Source: Asterella californica
Lineage: Eukaryota > Streptophyta > Marchantiopsida > Marchantiales > Aytoniaceae
Length of the DNA stretch: 64,000 nt
Assembly (NCBI GenBank): GCA_036924285.1
Contig: JAYKYS010000005.1
Coordinates: forward strand, 2,480,001 to 2,544,000
Direction of reading: 5' to 3'
Positions 58,318 through 64,000 of this stretch are shown piece by piece. The notes beneath the pieces are model-generated. The model ran no database searches. It saw nothing but the letters and a program-made list of their open reading frames with translations, and was not told the origin of the DNA. Numbering within the stretch: the stretch's first letter is position 1; each line of letters begins with the position of its first letter. A program made the position numbers and the translations under genes.

Positions 58318-60210
58318 TGTTATCTTAGGAAGTGGCAGTTTCAGTGTAAAATTAGATAGAGTAAGTGAGGTATGAGAGGTCTACAACCCAAGGATAATAA
58401 GAGATGTAAATGATGTGTATAGAATTTATTTGTAGTCAGTGTCATTCAGTTTTTACTGTCACGTCAGTTTGGGCACCTCGGCTAGGTTGACCGAGTGCGA
58501 AGTGACGCGTCCCGGTAAGGCCGTTCGAGCCGTTAAGACGAGTTGGTGGGAGAGCCCACTAGGGGTAAACTTCGCAGGTAGGGCTTGGAGACCTTAGTTC
58601 TTTGAGTTGAGTCTTCAAGCTCCAGGCTATGGTGGATAGTCTAGTTGAGTGTAATCCGGATTCTCTTCGCGTTTAGAGTGGGTTTGGCTTGACCGTTTGT
58701 GAGTAATCCTTGTTGTGGTGTTGGAGATGGTAATTTCTCTATACAGATTACTCAAAGAACTGAGTGCAGGTCGAGGCGGAGTTCAGTAAGAGCTCGCTGA
58801 TCTGAAATCTGAAATCGTCCGCTGGTATCTTCGGGCGTTGTCGTTCGTGCTTGATTGTGTGGAGCCGTGATCGAGGTGTGTGGGCGTCGTGCTACATTGC
58901 TGGTCGCAGATCGATTTGCTGTTGTTGGGGTCGAGTAGAGATTTCTGTCATGCGGAAGCGCTGCAGAAATTTTGCGGAATGTTCTTGAAGTGTGTTGTTG
59001 GAGCCGGATTGCGCGTTTGGGCGTAGCAGCTGAAATACTTGTCAATGGAGGCTTCGAGGAGCAGGGGTGCGGAGGCGTGAGAGCGGAGTGCGAGAGTGCG
59101 GAGGCGGAGCGGAGCCTGAGCCTGAGCCTGAGCTCGAGCCCGCGCCCGCCGCAAGCCAGCTTGCTGGCGTGCGTGAGAGAGGTATCCAAGTTCTAGTGTG
59201 TGGGAAGTGTAAAACCAGCTGGTCACCCATCGCAACACTATTTCTGGACTTGGACTCCTGACTTTGTAGTCTTAGCTTTGGCTTTACCACTAGACCAATA
59301 GCTCTTGGTGTCCTACAGGGATGCGTGCAAGTACTTATGGACTTGTTTAAGGTAGTAGGAGACCTTCTCGCACGTTCCTAGAGGAGTGGTAGGGCGACCC
59401 CATAGTATTAGGGGTAAGCTATAGTTGTGGTAGTGTTTGCCTATACCGTAGAGACGCGTATGTAGGCAGTTGGTGGCAGTTGTCTTGGGTGAGCTAGTAG
59501 AGCTACCACGTGGATGTTTTTGGAGCTACTAGAGGTGTGGATATCTAGATAGTGACCTCCAGTGTCAGTTACGACAGTTGGTAACCATATATTGTGCATG
59601 TGGTCATCGACGAGGAGACGTCAGTCCGGATGGGGCTGGGTTTCTCTTTATGTGGATGTTTGAGTGTGGAGGGTTATCGTTTGGACTTCTTGTGGTTAGA
59701 ACCCCTCCATATTCTGCTTCCTGTTTGTACGTCACGTTTGCTTGTGTTGGCGCTTGATTTCCGAAGTGAGTTCACTCCAGTGTCCTGTCGGTAGTGAGGC
59801 TGGAGTTGCGGACCAGTCAGACTACCTTTGTCTCTCTCACGGTGCGGTTGGAGTGACGACCAACAGACCGTGAGAGGCTGTCTGTGGTGATGGCAGGTAC
59901 AGGTTGCCCTTACCTTGATCGTCCTAGTAGGGGATAGGTGAGCTCAGTAGGAGCGGGGTTAGGCAAGTGGTGGTTACGGTGGTGACGGGGATTGCGACAT
60001 TCCAGTTGGGGAGTGTGTTAGCGGGATTCTCTCATCACGGAGTTCTCGGGAGGTTCTGGTGGAGACTTCTCGGACAGTGGGTATACACGGAGTGGGGTGA
60101 GGTACCGACTACCTACACCATTGCCGTCGGTTGTTTCAGAGGACGAGTCAGACGCAGACAGCGCGTTTTCTGGTGGTGAGTCTAGTGTCGCCACACCGTT
60201 GTTGTGGGAC
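58318..60210 (+). repeat. Presumed 5' LTR and leader of the methyltransferase retroelement
   Basis: Upstream of gag the DNA turns from AT-rich to GC-rich at about 58450. TGTTATCTTAGG at 58318 is a possible LTR start, and TATAGAATTTA at about 58419 a possible promoter. The 3' LTR is beyond the window, so no boundary, primer-binding site or target duplication can be proved. A GCCTGA hexamer repeat lies at about 59115-59135. Open frames here (for example 58752-59189, minus) are composition-driven. Confidence 0.35.
59205..59300 (-). repeat. Composite tRNA-like and 5S-like Pol III promoter sequence
   Basis: On the minus strand, TGGTCTAGTGG (A-box-like, about 59299-59289) is followed about 30 bp later by GGAGTCCAAGTCC (B-box-like, two mismatches). 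Then comes GCGATGGGTGACCAGCTGG, which shares GATGGGTGACC and CTGG with the C-box part of plant 5S rRNA. The stretch is too short for either RNA gene. A SINE head, or a 5S-derived segment like those in Cassandra-type LTRs, would explain it. Confidence 0.35.
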
Positions 60211-61716
60211 ATGGACAAGATCTATGGGGCCACGAAGGGGCCTCGACGTTACTCCGGTACAGTTGGTACCATTGAGCTGGATGACTTCATCCAGGAGTTC
60301 GACAGTTGGTGCGATCTGCAGCAGATGCGGAACCCACAGCTGTTTACACCCTTCATGGCGTGGAAGGGTTTGTTCCAGCACTTGGAGGGACCGCCGATGG
60401 ACGATTATCATGAGTTCAGGCGAGATTACAGTGTTGAGATCGAGTTGTGGAGACAACATTGGTCTCCCAACTACGTTTCTATCACTACTGGCGCAGTTTC
60501 GGGAGGCGTAGCACCTACGAGTTCGGGTGCCAGTAGCAGTGGTACAGCCACAAGTGGCGGAGTACCTATTAACGGTGCGTCCACAAGTAGTGGAGCAGGT
60601 GGTAGTGTGAGCGGGATACCACCAGGGTTTAACCATGTGGTTCAGTTCTTCCAATGTTTGAGGAAGAACTATCAGGGTGTGCGGACCGACAAGTTGAGGA
60701 GTCTGCAGGAGTTCCAGCGGAAGACTGGAGAGAGCCTACGCGAGGCGTTTACTCGCATGAGGCGGTTGATCAGCGTTACCCAAGGGGTGACGGAAGCACA
60801 GGCAGTCCAGTTCTGGTATGGGATACTAGACCGGGAGCTGCGTAGGAGAGTTAGAGATGCTACTCTTCTTAGAGATACCGCTCCGACGTTGGCGGTTGTC
60901 TTTAGTCTGGCTGAGCGGATTGAGCTCAACATGGTGGAGGAGAGGGTGGTGGTTGCTGGGTTCAGCAAGGAGACACCACATGGAGCGACCACCTCTTCTC
61001 GAGGATCACAGGCTATGCAACAGCGTGGTGGTGGTGGTGGTAAGGATCGTGCAGAGCAGTCACGATCGCATGGAGGTGTAGGAGGATCTGGTGGGCAGAA
61101 GCCCATGCCGTCCTTCTCTAGTCAGCAGCAAGCGGGTCCTTGCTGGACGTGTGATGGTCCTCATCAGCAGAGGGACTGTCCACAGAGGAGAGGTTATGAG
61201 ACGTCAGGGACATCAAGGACGTCTCCAGCAGTACCTAGGCAATGTGAGCATTGCGGACGACCTGGTCACAGTAGTGACCGTTGTTTTGATCTCCATCTCG
61301 AGTTGCGGCAAGAGAAGGCTGATCGTGGACGAAGCGGAGGAGCTCAGGGAGGCCGTGGTGGTCAAGCTGGAGGTAGAGGTCCAGCACCTGGGAGAGGACC
61401 GGTCGGTCCACCGCCTGCTACGACGTCAGAAGCAGGTATGGCTGCTCGGATTGAGCAGTTGGAGCAGAGGATAGCTAGTATGGCTATGGCTCAGCGGAGG
61501 TCAGGTGGAACAGAGGCTTCCACGTCTTATGGAGGAGAAGGAGATGACTTTGACTTCATGGCTGGTGTGGCGCAGATTGAGGCATCTGCGGCAGTGACTA
61601 GAGGTGCAGTACGTGCCTCTGAGCCACGAGGTGCGTCAGTGGAGTTGGATCCACAACGCGGAGAGGCTGGTAGACAGGCTAGGCTTCCCAGTCGTTCACG
61701 TTATCGGAGGCATTGA
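60211..61716 (+). CDS. LTR-retrotransposon Gag with two zinc knuckles
   Basis: The first ATG in this frame is 60211; the frame is open back to 60022 and the upstream part looks coding (acidic, Ser-rich), so the true start could be earlier. From the ATG there are 501 residues. The N-terminal part has IELDDFIQEFDSWC and PFMAWKGLFQHLEGP. A Ser/Gly/Thr-rich linker follows, then a Retrotrans_gag-like region with LQEFQRKTGESLREAFTRM and FWYGILDRELRRRV. Two CCHC knuckles follow: CWTCDGPHQQRDC (CX2CX3HX4C, one residue short of the usual spacing) and CEHCGRPGHSSDRC (canonical CX2CX4HX4C). The tail is Gly/Arg-rich with a short coiled segment (ARIEQLEQRIASM). The frame is unbroken over 1.5 kb, much fresher than the other retroelements here. 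It would form the particle and bind RNA. Confidence 0.88.
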   Translation: MDKIYGATKGPRRYSGTVGTIELDDFIQEFDSWCDLQQMRNPQLFTPFMAWKGLFQHLEGPPMDDYHEFRRDYSVEIELWRQHWSPNYVSITTGAVSGGVAPTSSGASSSGTATSGGVPINGASTSSGAGGSVSGIPPGFNHVVQFFQCLRKNYQGVRTDKLRSLQEFQRKTGESLREAFTRMRRLISVTQGVTEAQAVQFWYGILDRELRRRVRDATLLRDTAPTLAVVFSLAERIELNMVEERVVVAGFSKETPHGATTSSRGSQAMQQRGGGGGKDRAEQSRSHGGVGGSGGQKPMPSFSSQQQAGPCWTCDGPHQQRDCPQRRGYETSGTSRTSPAVPRQCEHCGRPGHSSDRCFDLHLELRQEKADRGRSGGAQGGRGGQAGGRGPAPGRGPVGPPPATTSEAGMAARIEQLEQRIASMAMAQRRSGGTEASTSYGGEGDDFDFMAGVAQIEASAAVTRGAVRASEPRGASVELDPQRGEAGRQARLPSRSRYRRH

Positions 61717-62297
61717 GGACCACATCTATGGTTCCTAAACGGCCTACTGATGGTGCAGTAGAGTTGGAGGCATCGACATCCAGGAGTGGGTGTGATGTGA
61801 GTCCATCTTCGACGTCTGTGGATGCGACGTCGAACCCGATGTTGGGGGCGGCTACAGCAGTTTTGCGAGCCCCACTATTCTCAGCCACGGATATGAGAGC
61901 ATTGGGAGTCAACTTGGCTCCAGTGTTCCAGTTGGCGGCCACGCTCAGTGAGAGCGAGGATGTAGTTATCTCTAGTGCTGAAGTAGTTCAGCGAGAGACG
62001 GTAGATGTGTCCATGGAGTCGAGGATCAGGACAGCTACCAGTGGTACTTGGCAAGCGACTGCTGCTAGGTTAGATGAGTTATCAGCTAGGCCGGCGATTG
62101 ACCGTGCTGGTTTGGCACCAGGTGTGGTGTTGTTGGACAACAGAAGTGGTATCTTCTGTTTGGTGGCACCTTCAGGGAAAGTGTATCGACCTCAGAAGGT
62201 CTTGTTAGACTCTGGAGCCCAACCGTTGATGTTGGGAAAGGCGGCGTGTATTGGTTTGGGTCTGAAGAAGTCCGAGATAGAGAGATGTCCATTCTAG
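61713..62297 (+). CDS. Pol N-terminus with aspartic protease motif, ends in TAG
   Basis: The frame opens at 61683 and has its first ATG at 61728. It overlaps the end of gag by 34 nt in the -1 frame. No canonical XXXYYYZ slippery heptamer is visible, so the mode of expression is unclear. A roughly 140-residue Ser/Thr/Ala-rich part is followed by VLLDSGAQPLMLGK, the retropepsin DSGA active site. The flap-side part and the closing DVLMGGAVLYLMGF motif lie after the TAG at 62295-62297, in the same frame. The stop therefore cuts the protease domain itself. It could be a CAG-to-TAG change or a readthrough stop. Confidence 0.8.
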   Translation: MRTTSMVPKRPTDGAVELEASTSRSGCDVSPSSTSVDATSNPMLGAATAVLRAPLFSATDMRALGVNLAPVFQLAATLSESEDVVISSAEVVQRETVDVSMESRIRTATSGTWQATAARLDELSARPAIDRAGLAPGVVLLDNRSGIFCLVAPSGKVYRPQKVLLDSGAQPLMLGKAACIGLGLKKSEIERCPF

Positions 62298-64000
62298 TTG
62301 CAGACATCTCTAGGGGGATCAGGAGGTACGGCTCTACACATGACACGTGAGATGTTGACGGTGAGAGTTCGGCCAGATCACCCCACGGATGGCTCTATAG
62401 TGAAGGCCAAGGCCATCGTTACAGCCGCAAAGTCTTATGATGTATTGATGGGAGGTGCTGTGTTGTACCTTATGGGGTTCGTGATTGACTATTGGGCAGA
62501 GACAGCATCTTACAGACCAGGTTGGCAGTCCGGTGAGGGACGAGTGAGCCGCTTACCAGTGCGGTTCAGTGCTAGAGTTGGGACGACGGAGCATACACCA
62601 GGAACGATGGCATCCGTTGCAGGATTCAGTTCGGTCATCACTTGGCCGGACGAGTTGGTGGAGGATAATGCCCATGCGGAGGATACTCCGATCTATGAGG
62701 AGGTGGAGGACATGCCTAGCATGTCTACGTTAGTACTATCTGCCTTGGATGTTCCACTATGGAGTTCGAGTGGAGAGTTGCAGCAGTATGCTGATCAGTT
62801 GGTGCAGCAGGCTTGGAGTGAAGCCTTTGTACCACCAGTAGAGGAACAAAGGGTTGTTCCTGCTACTGGCCCTGTGACCTTATCACCGTTGGATACGACT
62901 CCCATTGTGTGGCAGTATCCAGAGGAGGGTGTATGTGTGCTGGAGCTGTTTGGAGGGATCAGCACAGGTTTGGCTGCGGTATTGCAGGCAGGTATACAAG
63001 TACAGCGATACTTGTATGTGGAGAGAGATGAGATTGCGAGGCGCATCTCATTGCGACATGTGGCACGTTTGGTGGAAAGATATCCTGAGTTGCTGCCCAT
63101 ATCAGCTGTTAGAGGATACCAGCAAGCATTACCGTCGGATATTTCGCTGCTGGGGGCGCAGGATCTTACGTTTGTGGGCACCATTCACTTGGTGATAGCC
63201 GGATGGCCATGTCAAGGTCACACGCGTGCAGGGAGAGGTCAGGGTTTACATGACCCGCGATCTAGGATGTTCTGGGAGATGTTACGGATCCTACGACATC
63301 TCCAGATGCATCAGGTGGATTCTCCAGCGTACATCTTGGAGAACGTTCTTTTGTTGGGTGATGCTCGTACACAGTTGATGGCGAGTGTGCACCAAGTGCG
63401 GTCTTGGGTTGGACCAGCAGTGTTGTTGGATGCAGCGAGAGTGGGATCTCATGCACATCGTCCACGGTTGTGGTGGACGAACTTGTTACCGAGAGAGGTG
63501 CTTAAGCGCGCACACGATGGAGTGAGACGACCAGCGCACCTCACGGTTGATAGCATCTTGGATGCAGGACGACGATCTCAAGTAGTGAGAGTCGTCGATA
63601 GGTCACCCATGGCAGTGGTGAACCTAGTGGGACGGCCCATGGTAGCATTACCCACTTTGGTAAGCTTTCCAGCGTCACATGCTTACAGAGATGGAGGACC
63701 TGGGCTTGTGTGGGATGCTCAATTACGGCAGTTGGTGGAGCCCAATGCCGATGAGAGAGAGCGAGCGATGGGTTTCGCTACGAGTACGACGGCAGTAGCT
63801 TCGGTGTCGGAGGCTTCACGTCGTCAAGTATTGGGTCAAGCAATGGACTTGAATTGTTTGACATGGATTGTTAGCCTTGGATTGGCTGAGCAGCGTCGGA
63901 TGCGATCGACGGGTGTTACTGCTCGAGCACTCTTGAGCTCTTTGCCTATCGGGTCGGTGGAGGCAAAGGCTGGGGGCGAGGCACGTGGAGTTCGTCATCC
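62298..64000 (+). CDS. DNMT3-like C5 cytosine DNA methyltransferase in retroelement Pol (open at window end)
   Basis: The frame continues directly after the TAG with no stop for 567 codons and leaves the window. The rest of the protease comes first, then an acidic linker, then a complete C5 methyltransferase. Motif I is VLELFGGISTGL (62937 on), the S-adenosylmethionine pocket. Then YLYVERDE, and motif IV AGWPCQG with the catalytic Cys codon at 63210. GLHDPRSRMFWEMLRIL follows, then motif VI YILENV (Glu at 63339), motif VIII HRPRLWWTNL (63456-63485), an 85-residue target region, motif IX ERERAMGF (63756 on) and motif X RRQVLGQAMD (63819 on). The I-to-X order is not permuted, which excludes DRM. 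The short target region and the HRxRxxWxNL form resemble DNMT3. All key residues are present, so activity is plausible. Similar captures are known in dinoflagellate and charophyte retrotransposons. Reverse transcriptase and integrase should follow beyond the window. Confidence 0.9.
   Translation, partial: MQTSLGGSGGTALHMTREMLTVRVRPDHPTDGSIVKAKAIVTAAKSYDVLMGGAVLYLMGFVIDYWAETASYRPGWQSGEGRVSRLPVRFSARVGTTEHTPGTMASVAGFSSVITWPDELVEDNAHAEDTPIYEEVEDMPSMSTLVLSALDVPLWSSSGELQQYADQLVQQAWSEAFVPPVEEQRVVPATGPVTLSPLDTTPIVWQYPEEGVCVLELFGGISTGLAAVLQAGIQVQRYLYVERDEIARRISLRHVARLVERYPELLPISAVRGYQQALPSDISLLGAQDLTFVGTIHLVIAGWPCQGHTRAGRGQGLHDPRSRMFWEMLRILRHLQMHQVDSPAYILENVLLLGDARTQLMASVHQVRSWVGPAVLLDAARVGSHAHRPRLWWTNLLPREVLKRAHDGVRRPAHLTVDSILDAGRRSQVVRVVDRSPMAVVNLVGRPMVALPTLVSFPASHAYRDGGPGLVWDAQLRQLVEPNADERERAMGFATSTTAVASVSEASRRQVLGQAMDLNCLTWIVSLGLAEQRRMRSTGVTARALLSSLPIGSVEAKAGGEARGVRH

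Follow-up and report, generated by a model that had tools for sequence, protein, structure and literature searches.

Known DNMT-carrying retrotransposons and the present locus

Retrotransposons carrying a cytosine-5 DNA methyltransferase (C5-MTase, DNMT) are known from the charophyte Klebsormidium nitens, in which KnitGypsy-Dnmt3 is a Gypsy element with a DNMT and split repeats in the arrangement A-coding-B-A-B, and from dinoflagellates, the hosts of SymbioDIRS-Dnmt3 and SymbioLINE-Dnmt (de Mendoza et al. 2018, PMC5890265). A 2025 paper gives such elements as present in 'streptophytes and dinoflagellates' (PMC12344493). Here, a Ty3/Gypsy retrotransposon is described which lies at the end of a 64,000-base stretch (the window; C419:2480001-2544000, contig JAYKYS010000005.1) of a 516.7-Mb genome. 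The copy at the window end is dead; the sequences of its intact kin support a C5-MTase as an integral, selected part of the Gypsy polyprotein, encoded together with Gag upstream of a stop codon that is probably read through. Positions without prefix refer to the window; L and P numbers denote fetched loci and homologous proteins.

As published, KnitGypsy-Dnmt3, the nearest element described so far, resembles the liverwort element in its LTR-Gypsy domain set, its intronless DNMT3-type domain with the key residues kept, purifying selection and the DIRS-like A-coding-B-A-B repeats. It differs in that its DNMT is part of the Pol open reading frame (ORF), whereas the liverwort element has it in the gag-protease frame before a conserved TAG, and in its charophyte host as opposed to a likely land-plant host. 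The likeness rests on the published description, since no Klebsormidium-named protein was among our 141 homologues. SymbioDIRS-Dnmt3, again by the published account, also carries a DNMT and also shows two domain orders; the tyrosine recombinase of SymbioDIRS and the endonuclease of SymbioLINE contrast with the DDE integrase and 4-bp target site duplication (TSD) of the liverwort element.

An earlier note on this DNA, made from the sequence alone, had named the charophyte and dinoflagellate precedents correctly and had suggested a land-plant example. The latter suggestion is supported: for the host's DRM-type gene at L013 the closest relatives are MpDRMb (65% over 93%) and a protein of Riccia fluitans (70% over 88%), the best Calypogeia protein reaching 45%, and the host is likely a land plant, more precisely a complex thalloid liverwort. 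No report of DNMT retrotransposons in bryophytes was found in the open-licence literature searched, although one may exist elsewhere in print; the words PHD, Marchantia, liverwort and Sphagnum do not occur in the main text of PMC5890265, and none of the literature matches listed (15 of 52) dealt with a PHD finger on a plant Gypsy integrase. As far as this search goes, the following are new: a family of hundreds of copies in a land plant, related proteins in the Marchantia annotation, the Gag-side DNMT, the PHD finger and a second domain order.

Structure and number of genomic copies

Twenty further copies were fetched, most of them picked for long open frames. In 16 (L015-L030), gag, protease (PR) and DNMT form one stop-to-stop frame of 1,367-1,381 amino acids (AA). 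Ten copies (L016-L023, L025, L027) are open throughout, with ORF1, a single stop and then an in-frame ORF2 of 1,038-1,041 AA; L034 has an intact second and a shortened first frame, and the remaining nine are interrupted in one or both frames. The order in intact copies is gag-PR-DNMT, TAG CAGTCA, and then reverse transcriptase (RT), RNase H (RH), integrase (IN) and PHD finger. Pfam matches in ORF2 of the intact copy L016 were all above cut-off (RVT_1, 6.9e-33; RNase H, 3.1e-36; Integrase_H2C2, 1.1e-16; rve, 2.4e-14; PHD, 6.8e-11), and in its ORF1 no Pfam domain was found besides the DNMT. The succession PR-RT-RNase H-DDE integrase is that of Ty3/Gypsy elements, the protease being recognized by its DSGA motif and homologues only.

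The element ends in TG...CA, with TGTCACG... on the left and ...GCGCACGACA on the right. Both ends were found in 15 of the 20 fetched copies (not in L015, L024, L025 and L030; the left flank of L029 was not fetched). A 4-bp TSD, exact by chance in about 1/256 of cases, is exact in 12 of these 15 and in the window copy, and three of four bases match in L020, L022 and L034. The repeats are split as A1-coding-B1-A2-B2, and the two full flanking long terminal repeats (LTRs) expected of Ty3/Gypsy are not present; B1 and A2 meet at CA-GC-TG within the palindrome GACAGCTGTC. Classification as a DIRS element was ruled out by the DDE rve integrase and the target duplications, DIRS elements having a tyrosine recombinase and no TSD.

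A 21-base pattern over the B-A junction has 692 exact matches genome-wide versus none for the reversed control. For the A repeat, a first look yielded 3,274 candidates; 40 of them were scored, each reaching 96-100%. Together with 984 sites sharing the context of the stop codon (see below), this supplies the copy count called for in the earlier note: the family is high-copy, with hundreds in the genome. Identity of A1 and A2 was sought in 19 copies, four of which lacked an end or an exact junction. The two repeats are identical across 293-294 bases in six of the 15 measured copies (L016-L019, L023, L027); the remaining nine show 98.0-99.7% identity, in one case over just 158 bases. Several copies must therefore have been inserted recently and, since synonymous sites of the DNMT diverge by ~10% among copies, more than one lineage has been active. 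A dead fossil family is ruled out by the intact copies with identical A repeats.

The copy at the window end

The window copy extends from 58457 to C419:2547891 (9,435 bases), ~3.9 kb of it beyond the window, and was followed past the window end in L009 and L010. Its features are:

58453..58456, no strand: TSD TTAC, left copy (sequence); the right copy, C419:2547892-2547895 = L010:892-895, lies outside the window
58457..58748, + strand: repeat A1, left terminus of the element, starts TGTCACG (self-comparison of L009 and L010; termini by copy comparison)
58749..60210, + strand: long leader from A1 to the first gag ATG (sequence)
60211..61713, + strand: gag (ORF list; frame open 60022-61716, ATG at 60211; weak Retrotrans_gag match)
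61141..61179, + strand: first CCHC zinc knuckle, CWTCDGPHQQRDC (sequence)
61243..61284, + strand: second CCHC zinc knuckle, CEHCGRPGHSSDRC (sequence)
61683..62294, + strand: aspartic protease segment, active-site DSGA at 62208-62219 (sequence, homologues)
62295..62297, + strand: premature TAG between protease and DNMT, in the window copy (frame open there in 16/20 other copies)
62919..63900, + strand: DNMT3-type C5-cytosine methyltransferase domain, canonical motif order (Pfam, profile, fold, alignment)
63198-63215, + strand: DNMT motif IV, AGWPCQ (catalytic Cys codon 63210)
63339 (Glu codon), + strand: DNMT motif VI, ILENV; motif X near 63815-63850
63901..64000, + strand: DNMT tail; the frame continues to TAG CAGTCA at 64128-64136 = L009:7128-7136
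L009:7131 to L010:248, + strand: RT-RH-IN-PHD with frameshifts (same frame as DNMT in intact copies)
L010:442-891, + strand: repeats B1-A2-B2 (self-comparison of L009 and L010)

Repeats A1 and A2 (L010:522-814) of this copy are 96.9% identical over 293 bases. Beyond the window end, the same element contains RT, RNase H, the integrase zinc finger, the DDE core and the PHD finger; the DDE core is split by a frameshift, each half scoring under the Pfam cut-off. The copy is judged dead because gag (60022-61716) and protease (61683-62297) lie in different frames, the TAG at 62295 parts the protease from the DNMT, and frameshifts interrupt the RT and integrase regions.

Several statements of the earlier note have to be adjusted here. 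It had set the element's start at 60211, which is too far right by the whole leader and A1. The single frame for gag, protease and methyltransferase is absent from this copy and present in the 16 copies named above; the frame reported as open to the window end has indeed no stop inside and ends at the TAG 64128-64130 beyond it. The zinc knuckles and the DSGA motif were both seen, with weak Pfam support for gag (Retrotrans_gag, E 0.014, below cut-off; no match at 0.01 in the intact L016) and none for the protease of the window copy. In the independent element L135, Asp_protease_2 scores 7.8e-4, below cut-off, and the homologues P0067, P0112 and P0115 have precomputed protease matches. Gag and protease are thus recognized by their CCHC knuckles, DSGA motif and homologues.

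Near the end of repeat A (58720-58748), TGGTAATTTCTC starts like a tRNA primer-binding site, yet lies inside the repeat.

The methyltransferase

The frame 62298-63998 matches Pfam DNA_methylase with an E-value of 6.1e-9 (36.2 bits; cut-off 22). The earlier note had named two outcomes as speaking against its proposal, namely lack of hidden Markov model support for a C5-MTase domain at 62930-63900 and lack of RT or integrase downstream in the same element; given this match and the domains just past the window end, neither applies. A profile of 17 element relatives, with the window frame first, was searched against the PDB and found DNMT3A (6.6e-25), 4onj (4.8e-11), a tobacco DRM, HhaI (1.5e-10), DRM2 (5.1e-8) and DNMT2 (2.1e-6); DNMT1 was absent among the listed matches at E up to 1. 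For 62868-63998, AlphaFold2 gave a model with a mean predicted local distance difference test (pLDDT) score of 91.3 and a predicted template modeling (pTM) score of 0.89. In Foldseek, DNMT3A was the top match (1.4e-20, template modeling score 0.85 by target length), and the 50 matches listed were all DNMT3-family structures, to which identity is 18-22%. Like animal DNMT3A/B, the domain has the DNMT3 catalytic fold and the canonical motif order, unlike the rearranged order of plant DRM enzymes, including the host's DRM-type genes L012 and L013.

Catalytic residues proposed in the earlier note, the Cys of PC (codon 63210) and the Glu of ENV (codon 63339), are confirmed: the motif IV Cys and the motif VI Glu-Asn are invariant in an alignment of 58 rows down to 31% identity, and motif VIII residues are at least 90% conserved. 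Motifs IV and VI are unaltered in 25 of 25 copies, five of which have stops in the domain. The ratio of non-synonymous to synonymous differences per site (pN/pS) among distinct copies, two double-counted places having been dropped, is 0.21 for DNMT (25 copies), 0.23 for gag (21), 0.18 for PR (25), 0.085 for RT (23), 0.12 for RNase H (20), 0.15 for IN (19) and 0.23 for PHD (18). The DNMT is under purifying selection.

In the DNMT tree, the DNMTs of the elements cluster together (24 rows, 97/100) versus two host DRMs, a DNMT3-like gene and 12 phage or bacterial enzymes; the deeper branch relating the group to these others is weak (26/58). The reading as a viral or bacterial methyltransferase was rejected: the loci kept from the scans, except L135, reach 23-45% identity in their best segment, and the 12 loci included in the tree fall outside the element group. 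Of the scanned loci, 80 of 291 confirmed were kept in viral contigs and 47 in genome contigs; 13 were tried for the tree, L064 being too short.

The DNMT3-like gene is found at L011 3767-5148 (G000:C1, near 40145511) as a canonical-order C5-MTase gene of the host genome in two exon-like pieces. It is placed near phage and bacterial enzymes with weak support and may be a host DNMT3 or acquired.

The stop codon between DNMT and RT

In the window copy (64128-64130 = L009:7128-7130), as in each of the 20 fetched ones, the DNMT frame ends at TAG CAGTCA. The earlier note had looked to RVT_1 in the same frame as the methyltransferase; a single gag-PR-DNMT-RT frame is ruled out for the family by this TAG. 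Among 2,691 TAG triplets counted in any frame of 20 related, non-independent stretches, 22 precede CARYYA, and 20 of these are the stop in question. Genome-wide, 984 sites fit the 22 bases around the stop when any triplet is allowed in its place, and among the 100 listed the codon is TAG in 94, TAA in five and AAG in one.

Tobamoviruses and other viruses have UAG-CARYYA as their type I readthrough signal (PMC5382211), and retroviruses such as murine leukaemia virus (MLV) produce Gag-Pol via UAG readthrough (PMC5009743). The liverwort stop has the type I sequence, UAG followed by CARYYA. It resembles MLV gag-pol and the tobamoviruses, as described there, in the in-frame TAG between structural and polymerase parts with CARYYA after it, and differs in the protease and methyltransferase upstream of the stop and in that readthrough is predicted only. 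Since a TAG in leaky-type context separates DNMT from RT, the DNMT belongs to the Gag side of what is probably a readthrough stop.

Relatives and the second domain order

In L135, an independent element with a DNMT 49% identical, TAG CAATCA stands in the corresponding place, and ORF2 is an in-frame RT-RH-IN-PHD of 1,047 AA, the first 100 codons of which contain no Met. L135 also shares an identical 16-base B-A junction, CACGACAGCTGTCACG, downstream of ORF2. Its contig (CADCWO010000201.1) is filed under a Synechococcales (cyanobacterial) metagenome-assembled genome, and its two ends have 60 bases in common, as the ends of a circular assembly would; the homologous proteins P0037, P0090 and P0135 likewise stand under bacterial names.

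Relatives were found among proteins of Marchantia, Calypogeia, Sphagnum and Closterium. Of the 141 homologous proteins, 101 could be sorted by domain order. Protease followed by DNMT with no RT after it was found in 62, many of them fragments; the Marchantia proteins P0091, P0092 and P0096 and 13 unnamed long proteins (P0101-P0113) stop 72-126 residues past the DNMT. DNMT followed by RT in one protein or gene model was seen in 12. The remaining 27 have RT/RNase H ahead of the DNMT, or the DNMT directly before the integrase. This second architecture, with the DNMT between RNase H and integrase and also with a PHD finger, comprises P0118, P0120-P0123 and others, mostly metagenomic. Its proteins with RT form one clade of the RT tree (14 rows, 100/99), and its DNMTs fall within one DNMT-tree clade of 26 (support 99*), of which 21 are so labelled and P0079 and P0080 sorted alike; the clade also holds P0063, P0065 and P0082, whose domain order is unseen. 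One capture and one move, or two captures, would both fit the two domain orders.

In Marchantia, the protein model P0023 (Mp_7g09570) contains the DNMT region of the element together with a precomputed PHD domain and lacks both RT and integrase; it is possibly a deletion copy or a co-opted gene.

PHD finger and traces of methylation

PDB neighbours of the PHD finger are CHD4, KMT2C, DPF (DPF3), KDM5B and PHF21A. Among them are readers of unmodified H3 tails, and a link to chromatin is therefore likely. Chromoviruses are Gypsy elements with an integrase chromodomain. They share with the liverwort element a histone-reader-type module at the integrase C-terminus, which is a PHD finger in the latter.

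For CpG, the observed/expected ratio is 0.75 (L016) and 0.77 (window copy), scarcely lower than the 0.78 of the window's first 56 kb; TG+CA is moderately raised in the element (L016 1.24, window copy 1.21, first 56 kb 1.08). C-to-T differences from L016 amount to 4.2% at CG, 4.0% at CHG and 2.7% at CHH sites (18 pairwise comparisons, L015 and L029 excluded). This pattern is compatible with methylated DNA, without telling whose enzyme acted.

Proposed mechanism and alternatives

The reading we favour, with moderate confidence, is that the intact kin of the dead window copy encode a DNMT3-type enzyme in the Gag-PR frame, before a likely readthrough TAG, which is predicted to methylate the element's own cDNA. 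Ribosomes would pass the TAG at a low rate, as in tobamovirus-like type I readthrough, so that Gag-PR-DNMT would be made at the level of a structural protein and Gag-PR-DNMT-Pol as a minority product. Both products would be built into particles; there the DNMT would encounter double-stranded cDNA, and new copies would be methylated before they arrive. The integrase's PHD finger is likely to recognize the histone H3 tail and to bias the choice of landing sites. The benefit is the weakest step: pre-marked copies might avoid recognition as foreign, or might undergo immediate silencing and for that reason be tolerated. Catalysis, readthrough, presence in particles, self-methylation and histone reading are all predicted from sequence.

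DNA methylation is usually directed at transposons and not written by them. Should the enzyme prove active, a selfish element would be a source of de novo methylation in bryophytes, and the question why a retroelement methylates itself becomes testable in a laboratory plant, Marchantia; the Gag-side placement offers a concrete clue, putting the enzyme at particle rather than polymerase level. A more far-reaching version is tentative and on balance doubtful. It would see an overlooked class of land-plant retrotransposons with a Gag-level DNMT3 and a histone-reading integrase, which methylates its cDNA in particles, lands by reading chromatin and spreads pre-methylated copies, has shaped liverwort genomes including that of Marchantia, and has been carried since the streptophyte algae.

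A number of observations weigh against the favoured reading. A second clade has the DNMT between RNase H and integrase, and in P0115 and P0059 DNMT and RT share one open protein, so the stop is not universal. An ATG is found at ORF2 codon 11 in all 20 fetched copies. The DNMT is under laxer constraint than RT (pN/pS 0.21 versus 0.085), and the selection of copies by long open frames favours intact ones. The CpG ratios were inspected for the strong CG-loss signature of heavy self-methylation, which was not found, and C-to-T differences, ~1.5 times commoner at CG/CHG than at CHH, would equally result from host methylation. The isolated KnitGypsy DNMT produced no methylation in yeast, a result which its authors call inconclusive (PMC5890265).

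The ATG at codon 11 would be used if ORF2 were produced by reinitiation or from a spliced RNA, with RT-IN-PHD as a separate protein and the TAG as the ordinary end of ORF1. In the same direction, the Marchantia and Sphagnum gene models P0093, P0098 and P0116 are shortened over the stop region, as if introns had been predicted across it. Such a route would require neither a shared frame nor CARYYA, however, and L135, which has no such Met, keeps both its TAG CAATCA and the frame; the window copy lacks the Met as well. We regard this route as unlikely, about as much so as action of the DNMT on host chromatin in place of cDNA. There, brought in with integrase and PHD finger, the enzyme would act on the insertion site or on other loci in trans, and its methylation would influence silencing near new copies or throughout the family. 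Animal DNMT3 enzymes carry an H3-tail reader, the PHD finger here is closest to the chromatin proteins CHD4, KDM5B, PHF21A and DPF3, and hundreds of copies could supply the enzyme; yet in this clade the DNMT sits with Gag and not with the integrase; the protease could separate them.

Less probable still is a DNMT fold retained for nucleic-acid binding, as in Gag-like packaging, and not for catalysis. Its position beside Gag and a pN/pS close to that of gag and laxer than that of RT would suit such a role, but binding alone does not need the invariant Cys and Glu-Asn and the conserved motif VIII residues of the 58 rows. That the DNMT merely rides along, or stems from misassembly, as the dead window copy might by itself suggest, is refuted almost beyond doubt by the 692 junctions, the 984 stop-context sites, purifying selection and the relatives in Marchantia, Calypogeia, Sphagnum and Closterium.

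Sequence to the right of the element

The right flank contains several short direct duplications, ~150-310 bases in length (L010 2327-2734, 4597-5061 and 6555-7200).

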